Positions 26,792 through 36,330 of a DNA stretch of 64,000 bases are shown here, piece after piece; position 1 is the first letter of the stretch; each line of letters starts with the position of its first letter. The stretch is taken from positions 1 through 64,000 of the forward strand of contig PNKL01000008.1 in assembly GCA_013822425.1 (NCBI GenBank), written 5' to 3'. The notes under the pieces were generated by a model, which worked only from the letters and a program-made list of their open reading frames with translations, had not been told where the DNA came from and ran no database searches. The translations under genes and the position numbers were made by a program. Origin of the DNA: Gemmatimonas sp. (GTDB lineage: Bacteria > Gemmatimonadota > Gemmatimonadetes > Gemmatimonadales > Gemmatimonadaceae).

Positions 26792-27556
26792 GTGACCGAC
26801 GCGATGTACCAGCATCACCGGCTCGGGGACGCCCCCGTCGGCTACTGCACGCCTGGCGCGTGGGAGCCGCGGTACCGCCCGCTCGTCGCGCCCGAGATCA
26901 GCGGGCCGTCGACGCATGCACGCGCACTGGACATCATGCGCGCCCTCGATGACACCGAGGCACTCGTCAAGCAGGTTCTTGCGGTCGCCGCGACGGATCA
27001 GCTCCTCGCACTCCGGACGGTTCGCGAGGGATGCCGCATCACTCTCGACGCCCTTTCTTCAGCCGACCCGAGCAACGCGACACGGAGCATGCTCATGTTC
27101 GAGGCGTTGGTCTTCTTGCTCGCGGAGGCCGGCGTGTGGCCGGACGATGCCCGCGACGTGGCGACATGGCCGCCAGAGACCGACCTTCCCCTGGCGCCCG
27201 CACTCGAGGAACAGCTGCTCGCGCGTCGTCGCACCTTGGCCGATGAGATGCTCGCAGTCACGACACTCTCGGAGGGGCTTCTTTCACGCTGGGTCGAAGC
27301 AACCCTCGACGTCGCCATCCTGGATCGCCGCCTCGGCGCGCTCGCCATGTACCCGCTGGACGCCAGGCACGCGGCCGCTGAGCGCGCCGGCACGATGTCC
27401 GCCGCCGTCACTCAGGCGTATCGCGACGACACCCGTCGGCTCGCCGCCCAGGCGCCGACGTTGGCCGACCGCCTTTTCGCCTCGCGACAGATCGCCTTCT
27501 ACGACCACACGGACCATCTCGCCCCGATCTCGCCCTCAGACGCTGGTGCCTCGTAG
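26792..27556 (+). CDS. hypothetical helical protein (254 aa)
   Basis: GTG start at 26792 (MTDAMYQHHRLGD). Largely alpha-helical with repeated Leu/Ala-rich helices (ALVKQVLAVAATDQLLALRT, LLSRWVEATLDVAILDRRLG). No signal, membrane segment or catalytic motif. The last 21 bp overlap the 3' end of the convergent helicase gene. Function unknown. Confidence 0.6.
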   Translation: MTDAMYQHHRLGDAPVGYCTPGAWEPRYRPLVAPEISGPSTHARALDIMRALDDTEALVKQVLAVAATDQLLALRTVREGCRITLDALSSADPSNATRSMLMFEALVFLLAEAGVWPDDARDVATWPPETDLPLAPALEEQLLARRRTLADEMLAVTTLSEGLLSRWVEATLDVAILDRRLGALAMYPLDARHAAAERAGTMSAAVTQAYRDDTRRLAAQAPTLADRLFASRQIAFYDHTDHLAPISPSDAGAS

Positions 27557-29356
27557 CAGCGCCAGCACATCAAGCGCTTCCACCGCCCCACGAGGGCGGA
27601 TGACTCGACCGACGTCCGCCAGCGCGTCAAGGACGCGTGGGATCAGCGCGCCCGGGAAGGTGTAAGCGGCGCGCAGCGCCGATTGGTGGGCCACCACGAT
27701 GAGGCGGGAGCGCGCGCGACTGCTCGCCACGCACAGCAGCTGTAGCAGGGCGACGTTGCGCCGCTCGTCGAGAAACGCGCTCGGCCGAGGCGGCGCGTCA
27801 GCCAGGTCGAGGATGATGACCCGCTGCTCGCCACCCTGGGCGCGGTGGATGGAGCGAACGAACCCCCCGGCGGCAAAGAAGGCGGCGGCGTGGTCCCGCA
27901 GCTCCTCGCGCACCACGTGCGCTTGCGCGGCATACGGCGTAATCACGCCGACCGGCCCGTGTCCATGCTCGTGCAGGGCACGCGCAATCGACACGTCGAG
28001 CATCGCGTGCACCAGGTTCATGCGGCTGCCGCCGACCGTCTCCATCGTGGCGCCGAGCGCGGAGGTATCCACGAGGAGCACCGAGGGTGTGCCGTCGGTC
28101 GGGGCCAAACTCGCGGTCGCCGGTGCGTCATCAAGCTGGTCGGCGTAAAACAGTCGAGAGACGACTCGCCGGATCGGCGGTGCCATGCGGAACTGCGTCT
28201 GCAACATCGGTCGGCGTTCATCCGGCGTCTCCGGTGACGCGAGACCGAGGTGGGCAAACAAGTCCGTCGCGAGCCACCGCTGGGCCTCGGCGTGCCGCGC
28301 CTGCACCACCGGCGGCAACTGGATCGGATCGCCCAACCCGATGACCTGGTCGCGAACGCACGCCGCCGCCAGCATGACTTGGGGAATCTGCGCCATCGAC
28401 AACTCGTCAATCACCGCCGTGTCCAACGTCAGCCCATCGGGCAGCCCCCACGCGAGGCGCGACAGCGTCACCGCCACGACCGACGCGCCCTCCAGGCGTG
28501 CCCGGAGAGCGGCCGGCGAGCGCGGCTGGAAGGACGCGAAGCGCCCAGCGAATGCGGCACTCGGCCATCCGACCCGCACGACAGCCTCTGGCGTCGCCAC
28601 CCGGGGCGAGAGCGATTCCATGACGGAGGCCAGCGCGGTGTCCACGGCAACATTCGTATGCGCGCAGAGCAGCACGCGCCGTCCGCGCCCTTCCACCAGT
28701 TCCGCGACGAGACACCCCAACGTCTTCGTCTTCCCGGTCCCCGGGGGGCCGAGGACAAGGGCAAGCGAACTACCGACCGCCCGACTGATCGCAGCAACCT
28801 GCCCTCGGTTCAGACCGCGGGCGGCGATCGACGGATGGGTTGGCCACGCCTCGCCCACCCGTGACGGCGCCAGCCCCAGCACGGTATGAAGGAGCGGCAT
28901 CGCGTGGTGGTTGCGGTCGGGCGCGATCAGCCCCAGCCTTGATCGCATCGCTCGCAGCACGGAGGTCGCATCCCCGTAGAGGATGGCCCCCTGCATATCG
29001 TCCACATCGAAGGGCTGGTCCGTGAAGATCGCGAGCTTCTGGAGGCTCGGCACGGCGTGATCAACCAGGCAGCGCGTCTCGACCTGGTCCACCGAGAGGC
29101 CGAGCGACGTAAACCGCGGTGGGTCCACCGCGCGGTCGACATCCAGGACATATCGATAGCGATCGTGCTCCGCCAGCTCGAGTCGCGCGTGCCTTACCAA
29201 GATGGGATCGGAGCCACCCCACGAAGCCACCGCGCGTGTGGCCGCACGGATTTCGGCGTCAATGCCGGCGAGGCAGCCTTCGTGAATCTCCGCATACGAC
29301 GTCGCGGCCGACGAGGGCGGCACGCGACGGCGCCGCGAGCGCGTGGCGGTTCTCAC
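27536..29356 (-). CDS. SF1 superfamily DNA/RNA helicase (AAA_11/AAA_12 type)
   Basis: 606 aa. The GTG at 29356 overlaps the stop of the macrodomain fragment upstream (GTGA), which suggests that it was translationally coupled to that gene before the TnpB insertion. Upf1/Dna2-like SF1B motifs in order: Walker A VLGPPGTGKTKTLG (about 203), Ia LLCAHTNVAVD, Walker B AVIDELSMAQ (Ser in place of the usual Ala), III GLGDPIQLPPVV, IV QTQFRMAPPI, V RSIHRAQGGEQRVIILDL and VI NVALLQLLCVASSRAR. The N-terminal 170 residues are a family-specific domain. Probably acts in replication, repair or defence; no nuclease domain. Confidence 0.85.
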   Translation of the reverse strand: MRTATRSRRRRVPPSSAATSYAEIHEGCLAGIDAEIRAATRAVASWGGSDPILVRHARLELAEHDRYRYVLDVDRAVDPPRFTSLGLSVDQVETRCLVDHAVPSLQKLAIFTDQPFDVDDMQGAILYGDATSVLRAMRSRLGLIAPDRNHHAMPLLHTVLGLAPSRVGEAWPTHPSIAARGLNRGQVAAISRAVGSSLALVLGPPGTGKTKTLGCLVAELVEGRGRRVLLCAHTNVAVDTALASVMESLSPRVATPEAVVRVGWPSAAFAGRFASFQPRSPAALRARLEGASVVAVTLSRLAWGLPDGLTLDTAVIDELSMAQIPQVMLAAACVRDQVIGLGDPIQLPPVVQARHAEAQRWLATDLFAHLGLASPETPDERRPMLQTQFRMAPPIRRVVSRLFYADQLDDAPATASLAPTDGTPSVLLVDTSALGATMETVGGSRMNLVHAMLDVSIARALHEHGHGPVGVITPYAAQAHVVREELRDHAAAFFAAGGFVRSIHRAQGGEQRVIILDLADAPPRPSAFLDERRNVALLQLLCVASSRARSRLIVVAHQSALRAAYTFPGALIPRVLDALADVGRVIRPRGAVEALDVLALLRGTSV

Positions 29357-29475
29357 TCGCTCGTCGGCAGATCGTAGATCGTGACCGCAACCCCGCGCGC
29401 GAGGCATTGGCCGAGGGCAGGGAGCGCAAGCTTCGATGCGTTGCCTATTAGCGGCCGGCACGTCGTCTGCGCGAG
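29353..29475 (-). pseudogene. C-terminal fragment of a macrodomain gene, separated by the TnpB element
   Basis: The frame ends LARGVAVTIYDLPTSE, the typical closing strand of Poa1p-like macrodomains (ARGVxVTVYDxP). It joins in frame to the N-terminal fragment at 30782-31069 if the element between the two CATATTCG copies and one copy are removed (VVANM + LAQTT). The joined protein would be about 132 aa, roughly 20-30 residues shorter than usual between the ANM and closing motifs, and the second glycine loop is not recognisable, so some sequence was probably lost. It might still be translated from the ATG at 29478 as a 41-aa peptide. Confidence 0.6.
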
Positions 29476-29600
29476 CATATTCGAGCTCAACGTCAAGGAC
29501 TGTGGAAAGTGATGTCCACGTCTTACGCCTTTCGGATCAGCCGTTGCCGGCTGTTTCGAGGGCCAGTACGGCCCCGGGTTGCGGCATCGAACCGATGCCG
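29476..29600 (-). ncRNA. possible guide (omega) RNA region at the tnpB 3' end
   Basis: TnpB guide RNAs normally derive from the last part of tnpB plus the right end of the element, with the guide read from the flank. On the minus strand that is this interval, with the guide running into 29475 and below, i.e. into the macrodomain fragment. Inferred from family knowledge; the RNA fold has not been computed. Confidence 0.35.
29500..29517. repeat. TnpB element inner inverted repeat, right end
   Basis: CTGTGGAAAGTGATGTCC; its reverse complement matches 30757-30777 apart from a CG and an A insertion there. May be a terminal recognition structure or part of the guide-RNA end. Confidence 0.7.
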
Positions 29601-30721
29601 GTGAGGAGGGCGTTGCACGCCGCGTTGACGTCGCGATCATGACGGGCTCCACAGGCCACGCACTCCCACACCCTCACCGACAGGCCGGCGACACCGTGCG
29701 GACCGGACAAGGCTCCGCAGCAATGGCACCGCCTGGTGGACTGCTTGCTACTGACCTCCACGTAGACGCGTCCCGCCTGACGGCTCTTGGACGCGAGCAT
29801 GCCGCGAAGTTCGCCGTGCCCAGCGGAGAGCACGGACTTGCCAAACGTGCGCTGCAATCCTTTCAGGTTGTCCTTGCTCAGATAGATCGTCGCGTGCCGC
29901 GCGACCAGATCCCGACTGATCTCGTGATTGCGATGGCGCCGCGCGTTGGCGAGCCGCTGCTGGAGCGCGCCGAGGAGCGCTAGGTTCAGGCCCCGCGCCG
30001 CCTGCCCGATGCGCCGTTCCGCACGCTGGTATTCGCGGGGGTGCGGGATCTTCTCGCCCGACGACAGCATGGCAAGGGTGGAGTAGCCGAGGTCGACACC
30101 GACCACCGCATGATCGACGACCGTCACGGTCCGCGGGGGCGCGTCGATGAACAGCGTGAGATACCAGCCACGCCGCACGCGCATGAGTCGCGCGCACTTG
30201 ATGCGGTTGACACCGACCTCGAGCCCGCAGAGCGCAGGGAGGTCTTTCTGATCGTGGAGGCGCACGACCCCAAACGACGGAATCCGCAGGTGCTTGGCAT
30301 CGAGCAGCTTGACGCCGCTCTTGAACGGCAACGAGAACAAGCGGTTGCGCTGGCCTTTCCGTTTCGGACGTCCCTTCTCGCCGGCGCGGTAGTCGGCCCA
30401 CGCGCCAGCGACGTCATCCACCAACCCCCGCAGAAAGTGCTGGTTCACCCCGAGGCGTGCGCCGACGCCGTTGAGTTGGGCGTGCAAGGCAAATGCCGAG
30501 GGGCCGACCCCGCCAGGCATCGCCTGCACCCATTGGGGCGACTTGGCACCCGGCGCCCACGCGGGCGGTGGGGTCAGGCGGCAACCGCGCACCCAGTCCC
30601 TGTCGGCCCGCAGATAGTGCCCGAACGCCCAGTTCCACACGCCGGTCCCGACCGCAAACCACGCCTCCAGCCGGGCCTCTTCGGCCTGGTTCAAGCGGAG
30701 CTTCACGCGGCGGGCGATCAT
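29537..30721 (-). CDS. tnpB: TnpB-like RNA-guided nuclease homologue with altered RuvC site
   Basis: 394 aa, usual TnpB length. N-terminal wedge/helical part with MIARRVKLRLN and WNWAFGHYLRADR; RuvC-I VVGVDLGYSTLAML with catalytic D210; zinc finger CxxC at C332/C335 and C354/C357; RuvC-III HDRDVNAACNALL with D364. At the RuvC-II site, where TnpB normally has xEDLxVKGM, this one reads YLSKDNLKGL: the glutamate position is S282 and the nearest acid is D284. The DNA reads cleanly through this stretch, so it is not a frameshift. The protein may be nuclease-dead, like TnpB-derived repressors, or use a rearranged site. Start ATG 30721. Confidence 0.9.
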   Translation of the reverse strand: MIARRVKLRLNQAEEARLEAWFAVGTGVWNWAFGHYLRADRDWVRGCRLTPPPAWAPGAKSPQWVQAMPGGVGPSAFALHAQLNGVGARLGVNQHFLRGLVDDVAGAWADYRAGEKGRPKRKGQRNRLFSLPFKSGVKLLDAKHLRIPSFGVVRLHDQKDLPALCGLEVGVNRIKCARLMRVRRGWYLTLFIDAPPRTVTVVDHAVVGVDLGYSTLAMLSSGEKIPHPREYQRAERRIGQAARGLNLALLGALQQRLANARRHRNHEISRDLVARHATIYLSKDNLKGLQRTFGKSVLSAGHGELRGMLASKSRQAGRVYVEVSSKQSTRRCHCCGALSGPHGVAGLSVRVWECVACGARHDRDVNAACNALLTGIGSMPQPGAVLALETAGNG

Positions 30722-30756
30722 ACGCAGATTCTAGAGGCGAAGAAAGACTGAAGCAA

Positions 30757-30777
30757 GGACATTCACCGTTTCCACAG
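30757..30777. repeat. TnpB element inner inverted repeat, left end
   Basis: GGACATTCACCGTTTCCACAG, the partner of 29500-29517, lying about 20 bp inside the left direct repeat and 36 bp upstream of tnpB. It may also overlap the tnpB promoter. Confidence 0.7.
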
Positions 30778-30781
30778 ATCT

Positions 30782-31069
30782 TTACGAAGAGCCCATATTC
30801 GCCACGACGAGGTGTGGCCTGACCCGCACGAACTGCGTCTGCCCCAGCGCAAACTCGACGGCGTCGAGTTCGTGGCCATGAAACCAGGCGCGGTACGCCC
30901 GCTCCGGCTCCGGAAACCGCTGCGAGAGTGCCCCCGTGAATCCGCGGCCCCAGCCCCCCGCCGCGTTACAGATGTGCATCAGCAGCGCGGGGGCGTCGAT
31001 GGTCGGCGGGTCGGAGGCATCGCCGATCACGTACCGGATCGCTGCCACAGTCGGTGCGGGTTCGTTCAT
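30782..31069 (-). pseudogene. N-terminal fragment of a Poa1p-like macrodomain gene, interrupted by the TnpB element
   Basis: From ATG 31069 the frame reads as a macrodomain: IRYVIGDASDPP, the first binding loop LLMHICNAAGGWGRGFTGAL, PEPERAYRAWF, and ALGQTQFVRVRPHLVVANM. Family members continue with IGQ(H)G and about 60 more residues; here the frame runs into the element after VANM and stops within GSS. Macrodomains bind or hydrolyse ADP-ribose derivatives; the split protein lacks its C-terminal strands and is probably inactive. The missing end lies at 29353-29475. The interrupted gene would have headed a transcript with the helicase. Confidence 0.8.
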
Positions 31070-31288
31070 GGGTAGAGAGTACGGTGGTGACCAGCCGCCT
31101 TGGCGGGCTACCGCATGCCATGCGCGCAACGCACGGCACACGTCCTCCGTGCGGACACGGAGGATGCCAAAGTCATACCGGGTAGCGGCTGGCCCGCATC
31201 GGCCAGCAAGGCGTCGAGCGCCTGGCGCACCCGCAGCATTGCCACGGCGCGACGCGAAACCGCGCGCCGCACCGTGGTGAAGCGAGCA
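31070..31288. other. gap between ligase and macrodomain genes
   Basis: About 220 bp. No coding frame with convincing composition on either strand; it should carry the promoter of the macrodomain-helicase unit on the minus strand. Confidence 0.4.
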
Positions 31289-32398
31289 TCACGCCGCCTC
31301 GGCCTTGTATTCGAGCTGATCCGCTACGCAATCGGCGTCCGACAGCTCCGACGTGCGCACCGCGAGGAGCTCCGGCTGGAACAAGCTCCCACCCCGAAAT
31401 GCGTAGAGGTACGAGACTTCGACGATGTCCCCCGGCACCACCGTCTGCCGTGGCTTCACCGTGACGTTCCCCACCTCGCGGAACGACCCGTGGTCCAGCA
31501 CGCCCACGGTCACGGAACGCTTGGTCGGGTGTGCCTTGAGCACCTTGACGCTCGCGGTCTTGTAGAACTTGAACTTCACCTGCGGTCCGCCCGAGTTCGG
31601 ATGACCCGGTTCGTACGGCGCGTCGAGTTGCTTGAACACGATGCCCTCGGCGGTGTTCGCGCGCAGGGTCGCAAGCAGCGCGCGCTTCTCGGGCTCCGTG
31701 TACGCCGTCTCGACGAACCGTACGCTGGGGCTGCTCAACTCGGCGGCAATGGCGGCAAGCTGCGCCAAGCGCACGGCGTACGGGGCATCGCGCAAGTCGC
31801 CTCCCGCGTTGTCATCGACCAGCACATCGAACAGGACGATGTGCGTGTCGAATGCCTCGCCGTCGAGCGTGACGGCGCGCCCCAGCGACCGGACGGCATC
31901 GCGCACCGCGACGGGAATCGGCACGACGATACCGCGACGGTTGCTTCCGATCACCGTCCGGCCATCCGACACGAGCAGGCGACGTTCGCAGTCGTGTTTC
32001 TGCTGCGCGACGTGGTTGTCGCTGCGGAGGTAGGCATCCACCTCGGCTTCCGTAATTGCGTTCAGCAATTGCGGACGTGGCACGTCCGTCGCGGGTACAG
32101 CGACCGTCTCTGCGACCGATGCCACGGCGGGGTCCGTGTCGCCGATCACGCGATATCCCTTGCCCAGCTGCTCCCGCAACTTCCGGTCGAACGCCTTCTG
32201 CGCGGCCTCACGCCGCAGACCACGTCCCTTGTCACCGTGGTTGAGCGGCTTGCCACGTCCCGCGTAGCCTGTGAGGACATCGAAGGCGCCGGGCGCGGAC
32301 TGAACAATTGCGAGGTGGTAGACCTTGTCGGAACCACCTTCGGTGCAATGCAGGGACACGGCGGCAACCGCATCCATCGCGAGGGGTGAAGTCTTCAT
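31289..32398 (-). CDS. ATP-dependent DNA ligase with N-terminal WGR-like domain
   Basis: 369 aa. ATG 32398 has GGAGAG 5 nt upstream. Residues 14-85 match a WGR domain (LHCTEGGSDKVYHLAIV, GYAGRGKP), which binds nicked or broken DNA in PARPs and some ligases. Then nucleotidyltransferase motifs: I QQKHDCERRLL with K134 as the adenylated lysine (KxDC instead of the usual KxDG), III VTLDGEAF...IVLFDVL, IV AEGIVFKQ, V VKFKFYK, and a C-terminal OB fold (KPRQTVVPGDIVEVSY). A minimal nick-sealing ligase, with the WGR possibly targeting it to breaks. Follows nrdJ after a terminator. Confidence 0.85.
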   Translation of the reverse strand: MKTSPLAMDAVAAVSLHCTEGGSDKVYHLAIVQSAPGAFDVLTGYAGRGKPLNHGDKGRGLRREAAQKAFDRKLREQLGKGYRVIGDTDPAVASVAETVAVPATDVPRPQLLNAITEAEVDAYLRSDNHVAQQKHDCERRLLVSDGRTVIGSNRRGIVVPIPVAVRDAVRSLGRAVTLDGEAFDTHIVLFDVLVDDNAGGDLRDAPYAVRLAQLAAIAAELSSPSVRFVETAYTEPEKRALLATLRANTAEGIVFKQLDAPYEPGHPNSGGPQVKFKFYKTASVKVLKAHPTKRSVTVGVLDHGSFREVGNVTVKPRQTVVPGDIVEVSYLYAFRGGSLFQPELLAVRTSELSDADCVADQLEYKAEAA

Positions 32399-32468
32399 CT
32401 CGTCTCTCCGTCTGGTTGGATCGAGAGTGTGCGGCGCGCCCCCTGCGCAACGGCGACCCCGCCCGCAT

Positions 32469-32503
32469 CAAAAGGCGGGACACCCGGAGGCGCCCCGCCC
32501 TTC
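32469..32503 (-). terminator. Rho-independent terminator downstream of nrdJ
   Basis: On the minus strand, a GC-rich stem AAGGGCGGG / CCCGCCTT (one bulge) with a 14-15-nt loop is followed by TTTT. It lies about 45 bp past the nrdJ stop and 70 bp before the ligase start, so it should separate the two transcripts. Confidence 0.7.
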
Positions 32504-32547
32504 GCACATGCACAAGCCGTAGCGCGGCGTCCCCCGGACGGCCGCTA

Positions 32548-35500
32548 TCACGAACACTCCGAATAGCCGCAGGCCAGACAGTGCGCACATCCACTGGCCT
32601 CCACCATCAGTCCGGCACCGCAGTCCAGGCAGGCGCCGTGGAAGCTGTCGAACGGTGCGTGTCGGTCCCCGGGCTGCATCACCACCAGCGCCGCGTGACC
32701 ATGTGGCGTCTCGATCGATACCGGCGTCTCGACGCGCGATGGCTCCGGCGCCGTCCCACCGATCGGCAGTGCCTGCTGGATCCCGCGCTGGTCCGCCTCC
32801 CATTCGGCGAGGGCCTGACCCACCGCGTCCGGCATCGACAGCACCTTGTGTGGTCCCAGGCCGACGGCACGATCCGATGAGATGCCACGAATCTGCTTGA
32901 CGACCTCCGCGAGGGGCACGTCCGAGCGGAGCGCGAGCGAGATCATGCGGCCCAGCGCTTCCGCATCCGCCATCGCGCTGCCGCCCGCCTTGCCCAGATT
33001 GATGAACACCTCGAACGGACGACGCTCCTCGTCTTCCGTAATGTTGATGAACATGACGCCCAGCGGGGTGTCCTTGCGCACCGTGGTGCCTCGCAGCTTG
33101 TCGGGACGGACGCGCTTCCGACGTGGGCGGACCTGTTCGCCTTCGAGCTGATATAGCTGCTGCTCGAGCTTGCGGCGCTCCGCTTCGAGGTCCGTGATGC
33201 GCTCGGCCAGGTTCGCGAGGTCTTCCGTCGTGATCACCGGCCCACTCACGCGCGCCACGCTGGCCTGGTGGGTGGCGCCAGTCGAGAGCACCTGGCCGTC
33301 GCGCGAGCCGTCGCGATAGACCGTGACGCCCTTGCACCGGAGCGCGTACGCCATCTCGTAGATCGTCCGGACGTCCTCCACCGTGGCGGCGTGCGCGAAG
33401 TTCGTGGTCTTGCTGATGGCCGCGTCGCAGTGCTGCTGAAACGCCGCCTGCATGCGCACGTGCCACGCCGCCGGGATCTCGTTCGCCGTGCGGAAGATGT
33501 GCTGGACCGGCTCCGGCACCTCGGGATGGTTGATCGTACCACTCGTCGCAATGCGCTCCATCAGCGCGTCCGTGTACCAGCCCCCGGCCTTCGCCAGCGC
33601 AACGAAGTCTGCGTTGACCTCCGGCATCATCACGCCCGCCTGGTTCCGCATGAACGCGACGGCAAACAGCGGCTCAAGACCCGACGAACAGCCCGCGAAG
33701 ATCGAGATGGTACCGGTCGGTGCCACGGTCGTGATGTTGCAGTTTCGCAGGCGCTGCATCGGGCGAATGCGCTGGCCGGAGTCGTCGCGCGCGCACGTCG
33801 CGTCCGGGCCCCAGATGGACTGCTCCCACTCCGGAAATGCGCCGCGCTCGGTGGCCAATCGCTCGCTCGCCGCCTTGGCCTCGCGGTCCAGGAAGGCCAT
33901 CACCCGGCGCCCGAACTCCACGCCCTCCTCGGAGTCATAGCACAGGCCGAGGCGGATCAGTGCGTCCGCAAAGCCCATCACGCCGAGCCCGATCCGCCGG
34001 ATGCGCTTCGCGAGGGCGTCGATCTCGGGCAACGGGTACCGGTTGGCATCAATCACGTTGTCGAGGAACCGCACGGCCGTGTGGATGTCCGCGGCCATCT
34101 CGTCCCACTGGAACGCGCCGCTCTGCACGTAGAAGCCGAGGTTCACGGACCCGAGGTTACACACGTCGTAGGGCAGGAGATTCTGCTCTCCACAGTTGTG
34201 GACCACGAAACCGTTGGCGACGAACGAGTGAGTTACAGGCTCGGTGAGATCGAACACCTCTTCCAGGCCGTCCGGCACCAGTTCCTGGAAGCGAGCGACG
34301 AAGCGCTCGCGATAGGGGCCACGGCCTTTGTATCCGGCGAGGTGCTCGAGCAGTTGGTTCTGCTTGTGCTGGTGCAGAAAGCCGACCGCCTCCGCAAACC
34401 GCGCCAGGTTGTCCTTGCTAACCACGAGATCGTGATCGGACTGGCAGTCGTACGGTCTACCACCGAACTCGACCGTGCGCGCAGGATGGCGCTCCGGATA
34501 GAGACGAGACACGATCCCGAAATTCAGGAGGAGTCGCTGTACGTCTTCCAAGAGGCAAAGCGATACTGACGTGAGACGCACCGACACTCCACGGGCGGCG
34601 CTGCCGGCGACATGGCCGTCGGCCGTAAACAGCGATTGAAGGAATCCTCGCTGGAAGTCCTCCGTGCCCGCGAAGACCGCAGGTGGAACCCGCGCAACCT
34701 TGTTCTTCGCCGTCACGCCATAGCGTTCGGCGAGCACCGTGCGAAGGCGCTTTGACTGAATGGAGACCATCTCCCGGCTGCGCACCTGCGAGACCCCGAC
34801 CGGTCGAACACCACCGGCGGCGCTGGACGGAATCAGCGAGTTCACATCCGCGCACAAGGCGGGCGCGAGATCCCTATCGTCACCCCAGAATTGCAGTACC
34901 GCGCCCAGATGGTCGGGATTCGTGGTGATATGCCCATCCCCGATGAGCCACCCGAGCACTCGCCCCTCGCTGGCGGTGCCTCGGGTACCGAACCCGCCCT
35001 TGGCGTGCAGGAGGTGGATGTGATCACCTGGTCGGAGGTCCTGAGCTTCGACCCACCCCCGCGTGGTCATGACGCGATGGTCGGCTGTCAGGCGGACGTT
35101 GTACCCCTCCACTGTCTTCAGTCGGTACACCGGCTTGACCCCGCTGGAAAACGGCACTCCAGCAGGACCATACGAACCAGCGCGAAGGCGCCGATCGAGA
35201 GAAACGGAGACCGCCCGACCCTCGGCGGCCAACTCGCCAATCGGTCGCAGCCCCTCGGACGAATAGACCAGCGTCTCCCCGGTTACGCACGGGTTCGTCG
35301 CCTCGTACGCACCCAGGTGCGGCACAGGATTGTACTTGTTCGCCTCGTCGATGAAGAACACTCCGGGCTCCCCTGTCCTCCAGGCGCCCGCGATCATCTG
35401 CTCCCAGACGTCGCGCGCCTGCAGCTGCCCCACGACGTGCGCCGTGTGCGGATCCACGAGGTTGTACGCCGCATCCGCCGCGACGGCCTCCATGAAGGCC

Positions 35501-36147
35501 GTGGTCACCGCCACGGAGATGTTGAAGTTGGTATTCGCGCTCAGGTCATCCTTGCAATGGATGAACTCGAGGATGTCCGGGTGATCCACCCGCAGAATGC
35601 CCATGTTCGCGCCACGCCGCGAGCCGCCCTGCTTGACGACCTCCGTGCTCGCATCGAACATGCCCATGAACGAGATCGGACCGCTGGCGACGCCCTGCGA
35701 GGACTTCACCATCGAGCCCTTCGGTCGCAACCGGGAGAACGAAAAGCCCGTGCCCCCGCCGCTCTGGTGGATCACCGCCATGTTGGCTAGCGTGTCGTAA
35801 ATGCCGCTCTGTCCGTTCTTTAGCGTGTCGTCGATCGGCAGGACAAAGCAGGCCGAGAGCTGTCCGTGCCCGCGGCCGGCGCCGGTAAACGTCGGCGAGT
35901 TCGGCTCGAAGCGCCGCTCCGCCATCAGGGTGTAGAAGCGCAAGGTCAGCGCCTCCACGGCCGCCGCGTCGGCACCGTAACGCGTCTCGACGCTGGCCAG
36001 CACGCGGGCCACGCGGAAGAACAGCTGTTCGGGCGTCTCGATCACCTGACCAGCGCCATCGCGCATGAGATACCGTTTCTCGAGTACCGTGCGGGCATTC
36101 GCGCTGAGATCGGCCGGCGGGAGGCTGGGGGCAGACGAAGACGACAT
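32548..36147 (-). CDS. nrdJ: B12-dependent (class II) ribonucleotide reductase with intein
   Basis: 1199 codons including a 365-aa intein. ATG 36147 follows AGGAGAG by 4 nt. It makes dNTPs from NDPs/NTPs using adenosylcobalamin and is oxygen-indifferent. Class II landmarks: redox Cys in GQLSACFVLPID (C100), SGGGTGFSFSRLRPKGS, STEVVKQGGSRRGANMG, the active-site NPCGEQ (split by the intein), TGTISIFAGCSSGLEPLF and the C-terminal redox/zinc tail CLDCGAG...CAHCLACGYSECS. Near the C-terminus a TSCPD-like domain (TPLGVMFINITEDEERRPFE) is present. The mature enzyme would be about 834 aa. Supplies nucleotides independent of the host. Confidence 0.95.
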   Translation of the reverse strand: MSSSSAPSLPPADLSANARTVLEKRYLMRDGAGQVIETPEQLFFRVARVLASVETRYGADAAAVEALTLRFYTLMAERRFEPNSPTFTGAGRGHGQLSACFVLPIDDTLKNGQSGIYDTLANMAVIHQSGGGTGFSFSRLRPKGSMVKSSQGVASGPISFMGMFDASTEVVKQGGSRRGANMGILRVDHPDILEFIHCKDDLSANTNFNISVAVTTAFMEAVAADAAYNLVDPHTAHVVGQLQARDVWEQMIAGAWRTGEPGVFFIDEANKYNPVPHLGAYEATNPCVTGETLVYSSEGLRPIGELAAEGRAVSVSLDRRLRAGSYGPAGVPFSSGVKPVYRLKTVEGYNVRLTADHRVMTTRGWVEAQDLRPGDHIHLLHAKGGFGTRGTASEGRVLGWLIGDGHITTNPDHLGAVLQFWGDDRDLAPALCADVNSLIPSSAAGGVRPVGVSQVRSREMVSIQSKRLRTVLAERYGVTAKNKVARVPPAVFAGTEDFQRGFLQSLFTADGHVAGSAARGVSVRLTSVSLCLLEDVQRLLLNFGIVSRLYPERHPARTVEFGGRPYDCQSDHDLVVSKDNLARFAEAVGFLHQHKQNQLLEHLAGYKGRGPYRERFVARFQELVPDGLEEVFDLTEPVTHSFVANGFVVHNCGEQNLLPYDVCNLGSVNLGFYVQSGAFQWDEMAADIHTAVRFLDNVIDANRYPLPEIDALAKRIRRIGLGVMGFADALIRLGLCYDSEEGVEFGRRVMAFLDREAKAASERLATERGAFPEWEQSIWGPDATCARDDSGQRIRPMQRLRNCNITTVAPTGTISIFAGCSSGLEPLFAVAFMRNQAGVMMPEVNADFVALAKAGGWYTDALMERIATSGTINHPEVPEPVQHIFRTANEIPAAWHVRMQAAFQQHCDAAISKTTNFAHAATVEDVRTIYEMAYALRCKGVTVYRDGSRDGQVLSTGATHQASVARVSGPVITTEDLANLAERITDLEAERRKLEQQLYQLEGEQVRPRRKRVRPDKLRGTTVRKDTPLGVMFINITEDEERRPFEVFINLGKAGGSAMADAEALGRMISLALRSDVPLAEVVKQIRGISSDRAVGLGPHKVLSMPDAVGQALAEWEADQRGIQQALPIGGTAPEPSRVETPVSIETPHGHAALVVMQPGDRHAPFDSFHGACLDCGAGLMVEASGCAHCLACGYSECS
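34195..35289 (-). other. intein with DOD homing endonuclease in NrdJ (residues 287-651)
   Basis: Splits the extein between ATNP and CGEQ. Block A begins Cys1 (CVTGETLVYSSEGLRPIGEL), block B is VRLTADHRVMTT (TxxH), and the end is VTHSFVANGFVVHN with the His-Asn pair followed by Cys+1 of the extein, so all splicing residues are present. In the middle are two LAGLIDADG-like helices, GRVLGWLIGDGHI and GFLQSLFTADGHVA, each with the catalytic Asp. It appears to be a full-length, splicing-competent and possibly endonuclease-active intein in the same RNR site used by many other inteins. Confidence 0.93.
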
Positions 36148-36330
36148 GAATCTCTCCTGGTGACGGCAATACGGCCCTCGACACGAGGACCCGTACCTAA
36201 AAGCATACGGGTCCGCCACGCCGCACCGGCCGTCCGCGTGGTCCATCCGGGCGCGCGCGCGCCGACTAGGCGACCTCGCCCGCAACCGCCGGCGCCTGGT
36301 GCCGCCGATTGACTCCGGGCAGCAGGCCGC

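Follow-up and report, generated by a model that had tools for sequence, protein, structure and literature searches.

A tnpB gene in the window (the whole 64,000-nucleotide stretch of Gemmatimonas sp. DNA analysed here) was found to encode a member of a distinct TnpB clade, called SxD below, whose members all lack the RuvC-II glutamate and all carry an aspartate two residues later; the RuvC site has therefore probably been rebuilt, not lost. On balance, sequence comparison makes it probable that the catalytic acid of this clade has been relocated to Asp284 and that its members are working nucleases. In the mechanism proposed, the window gene would be a transposon-borne, omega-RNA-guided TnpB of a virus-associated clade, in which the RuvC-II Glu was lost and D284, which directly follows the strand that bore this Glu and sits at the base of the lid loop, would supply the third acid, joining D210 and D364 at the metal site; the protein would cleave DNA and serve retention of its element, as is thought for other TnpBs. 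The window copy would now be a passenger in an ISL3-like inverted-repeat element inserted into an open reading frame (ORF), with mobility dependent on a DDE transposase supplied in trans. The chances seem evenly poised for the fuller statement, that this is a third working TnpB RuvC layout (Asp at Glu+2) and that an ISL3-type DDE element has captured one basal member of the clade. The features concerned are listed in the table.

Table. Features of the window tnpB gene and of the element around it (window positions; residues numbered as in the window TnpB).
Feature	Position	Strand	Basis
tnpB, SxD-type TnpB (P0001), 394 aa	29537-30721	-	ORF, Pfam, model
RuvC-I Asp210 (VGVDLGY)	30092-30094	-	Asp in 51/51 family members
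Ser282 at canonical RuvC-II Glu position	29876-29878	-	alignment; counterpart of ISDra2 E278
Asp284, proposed relocated catalytic acid, Glu position +2	29870-29872	-	Asp in 51/51 family members
Ser325 at alternative-Glu (Ealt) position, 7 before first zinc Cys	29747-29749	-	alignment
RuvC-III Asp364 (HDRDVNAA)	29630-29632	-	Asp in 51/51 family members
omega-RNA stem 1 CCGGCATCGGTTCGATGCCG, inside tnpB 3' end	29582-29601	-	covariance model R1
1310-bp inverted-repeat element carrying tnpB	29484-30793	-	inverted repeats and 8-bp direct repeats
left terminal inverted repeat GGCTCTTCGTAAAGATCTGTGGAAACGGTGAATGTCC	30757-30793	-	alignment with right end
right terminal inverted repeat AGCTCAACGTCAAGGACTGTGGAAAGTGATGTCC	29484-29517	+	alignment with left end
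target-site duplication, left copy CGAATATG	30794-30801	-	8-bp direct repeat
target-site duplication, right copy CGAATATG	29476-29483	-	8-bp direct repeat

The gene starts with ATG and contains no internal stops, and its product matched Pfam Cas12f1-like_TNB (PF07282) at 63.5 bits, with OrfB_IS605 marginally below cut-off. The first-pass annotation of this DNA had reported that D210, D364 and both CxxC pairs are retained, which was confirmed (zinc-ribbon Cys 332, 335, 354 and 357), and that Ser occupies the RuvC-II Glu position in YLSKDNLKGL (residues 280-289). The latter reading held in each of three comparisons. Ser282, within the motif TIYLSKDNLKGL, fell at the Glu position in a MAFFT alignment of 158 sequences (51 SxD family members, 44 canonical and 63 alternative-Glu TnpBs); profile-profile alignment of the family against canonical TnpBs with hhalign (E 1e-61) paired S with E, K with D and D with L; and the family profile set against ISDra2 TnpB placed S282 on E278 and D284 on L280. 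The RuvC-II register is fixed because family members such as L125, SKDNLRGLSRAGFGKSV, match canonical TnpBs (EDLNVRGLSRGRLSRSV) gap-free.

At the canonical Glu column the SxD family has S in 41 members, T in 6, L in 4 and Glu in 0 of 51; outside the family the column is E in 44/44 canonical and G in 63/63 alternative-Glu TnpBs. An assembly error, which homologues with the Glu had been expected to imply, was rejected as the source of Ser282, since relatives carry the same residues. The alternative-Glu column is E throughout the Ealt clade (63/63) and S, N, P, C or G in 51/51 SxD members; with Ser325 at this position the window TnpB lies outside the alternative-Glu clade, and an Ealt rearrangement in it was likewise rejected. 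Only three acids, D210, D284 and D364, are invariant in all 51 SxD members, column 362 being D or E. At column 284, 43 of the 44 canonical TnpBs have Leu and the remaining one has Ser, the 63 alternative-Glu TnpBs all have V, I or L, and an acid occurs in 0 of the 107 members of these two sister groups. D284, which the earlier annotation had singled out as the acid to check, was the right one, being invariant and clade-specific. Its codons are split evenly in the family (GAC 26, GAT 25), while at Ser282 both Ser codon families are used and T and L replace Ser in some members, a pattern showing that residue 284 is far more tightly held by selection than 282. In eight close, unsaturated SxD pairs dN/dS was 0.08-0.13. 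The RuvC-I motif is DPG in 44/51 members, DTG in 6 and DLG in the window TnpB.

A model of the window TnpB built from 81 sequences (mean pLDDT 89.4, pTM 0.83) has the complete TnpB fold; its best matches among solved structures were 8iaz (ISFba1 TnpB; Z 25.9, rmsd 2.9, 338 aligned residues) and 8exa (ISDra2 TnpB; Z 25.9, rmsd 2.7, 304 aligned residues). In the model, strand 276-283 stops one residue before D284 and is followed by helix 286-293. The lid that covers the RuvC site of ISDra2 is described as bounded by P282, four residues past E278 (PMC11844463), so L280, the equivalent of D284, lies between the Glu and the lid.

In the tree of the comparison set the three active-site types correspond exactly to three clades, with support of 100 for the SxD family and of 99 for the SxD clade when only residues 1-270 were used. 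The 51 SxD sequences found form 48 clusters at 90% identity and 31 at 70%; the window TnpB is the deepest branch, a long one (1.14), and the other 50 lie in viral or phage-like contigs. When collections of viral and bacterial genomes were scanned with the window TnpB as a single protein, no relatives were found; alignment queries were needed because its closest relatives are <46% identical. An alignment scan of bacterial genomes yielded one closer relative, on near-identical contigs in two Izimaplasma metagenome-assembled genomes, where tnpB adjoins a phage tail-sheath gene; apart from this phage-like contig, no SxD member ranked among the 80 best loci from 84,980 bacterial genomes. Viral-contig scans seeded with the Izimaplasma relative returned dozens more members, whose neighbours include DNA primase, DnaB-like helicase and tail proteins. 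In cultured-phage and plasmid records, no SxD member was among the best matches listed (identities up to about 34%), and the best plasmid matches of the window TnpB (about 29-34% identity) belong to the alternative-Glu clade, with Gly at the canonical Glu. Several viral contigs (G413, G414, G420 and others) carry two to five different TnpBs each, SxD plus more distant types. In L181 (186-2703) a canonical IS605 element, with tnpA and a TnpB bearing CVEDLS, is inserted in an SxD tnpB at the RuvC-II codons, and in L139 (8001-8111) the SxD tnpB frame is broken after 36 codons with DNA similarity spanning the whole gene, which makes it a pseudogene or a sequencing error.

A partial literature search found no text on Asp at Glu+2 or on TnpB within ISL3 ends. 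As far as we could search, and within the literature searched, the SxD clade was previously unremarked, although it may already be drawn, unlabelled, in some published tree. Rearranged TnpB sites reportedly feature in the 2023 PNAS census of Altae-Tran and colleagues. Such sites are in any case known already (PMC10711439), and the SxD layout adds another variant.

A Y1 tnpA gene (PF01797) stands directly upstream of tnpB in four SxD lineages (L124; L130-132; L115/116/150/151; L114/146), the L124 TnpA matching at 154 bits. Two copies 99.4% identical (L127 and L131) share only the region from -15 to +42 around the gene, with different flanks. The tnpB 3' end in 24 SxD relatives forms an omega-RNA hairpin with strong covariation: 44 both-side changes were counted against 12.3 in shuffles (0/500 as high), no slid control came near, and 93.6% of the cells of two stems were paired. 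In many members a second hairpin follows, then a terminal TCAA and unrelated sequence, the presumed guide. For 12 pairs at 70-86% protein identity, the next 20 nt had 3-10 matching positions, averaging about 6, which is near chance; to judge from these sequences, such varying guides are the pattern of a mobile element, unlike a fixed-target repressor. Together with purifying selection, the covarying omega-RNA stem, the tnpA of four lineages and the lack of guide conservation speak for a transposon nuclease that works with a relocated acid, and against a dead repressor. Covariance model R1 matched the window at 29551-29635 (-) with 28.8 bits and stem pairs intact; in this copy the parts past stem 1 were not recognised by the model, nor was the usual IS605-type right end, which sets the guide start, recognisable. 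Rfam gave no credible match. Matches of the omega-RNA model away from the main tnpB were seen in L168 (2984-3110) and L136 (103-218, -), perhaps second copies or RNA-only remnants.

The window gene lies within an element whose inverted repeats of 34-37 bp, of the GGCTCTT type, aligned with a score of 29, reached in 0/2000 shuffles and 0/3000 window controls. Deletion of the element and one duplication copy restores a 156-aa ORF, and the DNA past the element's right end is the remainder of this interrupted ORF. The first-pass annotation had proposed that the guide would be read from a macrodomain flank; this is half right, in that the flank is indeed the rest of the interrupted ORF but the IS605-type right end that would set the guide start is not recognisable in this copy, and the name macrodomain found no Pfam support. 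A 17-mer of the target duplication and flank had 12 exact matches in viral contigs, taken as about chance level. No transposase was found within the 1310 bp. The genome holds one further instance of the terminal repeat, at 93739 of the contig, next to an intact ISL3 transposase gene (PF01610, DDE_Tnp_ISL3; contig 93961-94662, 181 bits, open frame), the nearest one; this ISL3 element with a matching end (C8 93739-94662) is on the same contig, 63 kb from the window element. Duplication of 8 bp of target is the habit of the ISL3 family. Because of the repeat shared with the transposase-bearing element, it appears, on these sequence features, that a non-autonomous element of the ISL3 type carries the window tnpB as cargo.

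The earlier annotation had left two choices, a guide-RNA-programmed binder or a rearranged nuclease. We regard it as unlikely that the whole SxD clade has lost nuclease activity and consists of RNA-guided DNA binders comparable to TldR or Cas12m, in which D284 would be retained to support folding or to hold one metal plus the displaced strand. In favour of this reading, all 51 members lack the RuvC-II Glu and have no Glu at the alternative position either, dead TnpBs occur in phages (TldR, PMC13418256), and Cas12m2 retains a metal site that does not cut (PMC10442227). The Asp that occupies the very Glu position in Cas12m2 lies too far away to bind the second metal (PMC10442227), so it does not follow that a shorter acid works from a shifted place. 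Against a dead binder stand the invariance of D210 and D364 with a new invariant acid beside the lost Glu, the adjacent tnpA, and guides that differ between copies 70-86% identical; an unsystematic look also noticed no clade-wide partner gene. Since D210 and D364 are kept, D284 is invariant only in this clade and the elements are tnpA-linked, the relocated acid is favoured over the dead binder, and of the annotation's two choices the rearranged nuclease, with the omega-RNA and varying guides on its side, is the better supported.

The invariance of D284 could, going by the model, reflect a structural role instead, and it may act as an N-cap because helix 286-293 starts right after it. Such a cap is the chief alternative reading of D284, although helix caps usually interchange D, N, S and T. 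It is very improbable that D284 is merely structural and another residue completes the site: candidate acids are common (E322 in 35/51, E230 in 47/51, a column-255 Glu in 49/51), but none of the three is invariant, the window TnpB has Gln at 255, and column 322 is also Glu in 44 of the 63 alternative-Glu TnpBs, whose column 325 holds the proposed catalytic Glu. Somewhat doubtful, and compatible with the other explanations, is that the window copy is a decaying passenger of a family that is perhaps active. Its branch is long, its right end is unrecognised past stem 1, it is single-copy in its own genome and absent from ten congeners, and its element has no transposase; yet its frame is open and full-length, the three invariant acids are kept, the fold is confident, and the still perfect target duplication suggests a fairly recent insertion. 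A lone decaying copy as the whole explanation was rejected by the clade and the selection values. The long divergent branch and diverged right end do mean that the window copy may differ from the rest of the SxD family, for which a relocated catalytic acid is the preferred reading.

Viral- or plasmid-style replication and nucleotide genes occupy 27536-48838 of the window, among them ribonucleotide reductase, a piece of an ATP-dependent DNA ligase, thymidylate kinase and a DNA sliding clamp that is a second, divergent one (22% to the other clamp of the host). A large phage or plasmid that was binned with the genome may be the source of this contig. The ribonucleotide reductase ORF (32548-36285) has an intein-like insertion (CVTGETLVYS ... 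VVHNCGEQN).

The RuvC sites of TnpB and Cas12 underlie many editing tools. If the relocated acid is real, a natural site has been rebuilt two residues away and conserved in dozens of diverse viral elements, and evolution would have found one more way to restore catalysis after loss of the Glu. Capture by the ISL3-type element would mean that a bacterial transposon outside IS605 and IS607 carries a guide-RNA nuclease. A dead clade would be no less unexpected, as a large class of RNA-guided binders that has kept its link to transposons.

Among known systems, canonical TnpBs (ISDra2, ISFba1; OrfB of IS200/IS605 and IS607) share with SxD the fold, the RuvC-I and RuvC-III Asp, the CxxC...CxxC ribbon and an RNA stem at the gene 3' end, with IS605-type tnpA and ends in many SxD members; they differ in having Glu (ISDra2 E278) where SxD has Ser and L280 where SxD has Asp, and form a separate clade. 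In Fanzor-like TnpBs the canonical Glu is lost and an alternative Glu stands six residues before the zinc finger, and a DPG RuvC-I motif is a Fanzor mark (Yoon et al. 2023, PMC10711439). Alternative-Glu TnpBs and Fanzors thus resemble SxD in the lost Glu, in a long zinc-ribbon loop (PxG...L) and in the DPG common to most SxD members, though not the DLG of the window TnpB, whereas SxD lacks Ealt in 51/51, has its acid at Glu+2 and is not nested among them in the tree. TldR (PMC13418256) is likewise phage-carried with a catalytic residue lost, but SxD has two acids and a new invariant third, adjoining tnpA in four lineages and variable guides. Cas12m2 (HDD site; PMC10442227) also has a non-canonical RuvC triad with Asp instead of Glu among its acids; it differs in that His replaces the first Asp, the Glu position itself holds Asp and the protein is CRISPR-associated, and no array-like direct repeats were found in 27000-33500 of the window. 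The window element resembles ISL3 elements in its 8-bp target duplication and in a terminal repeat that matches the ISL3 end on the same contig, and departs from them in lacking a DDE transposase (PF01610) of its own and in carrying TnpB as cargo. Fanzors carried in eukaryotic transposons offer a parallel to this capture of a TnpB by an inverted-repeat element.
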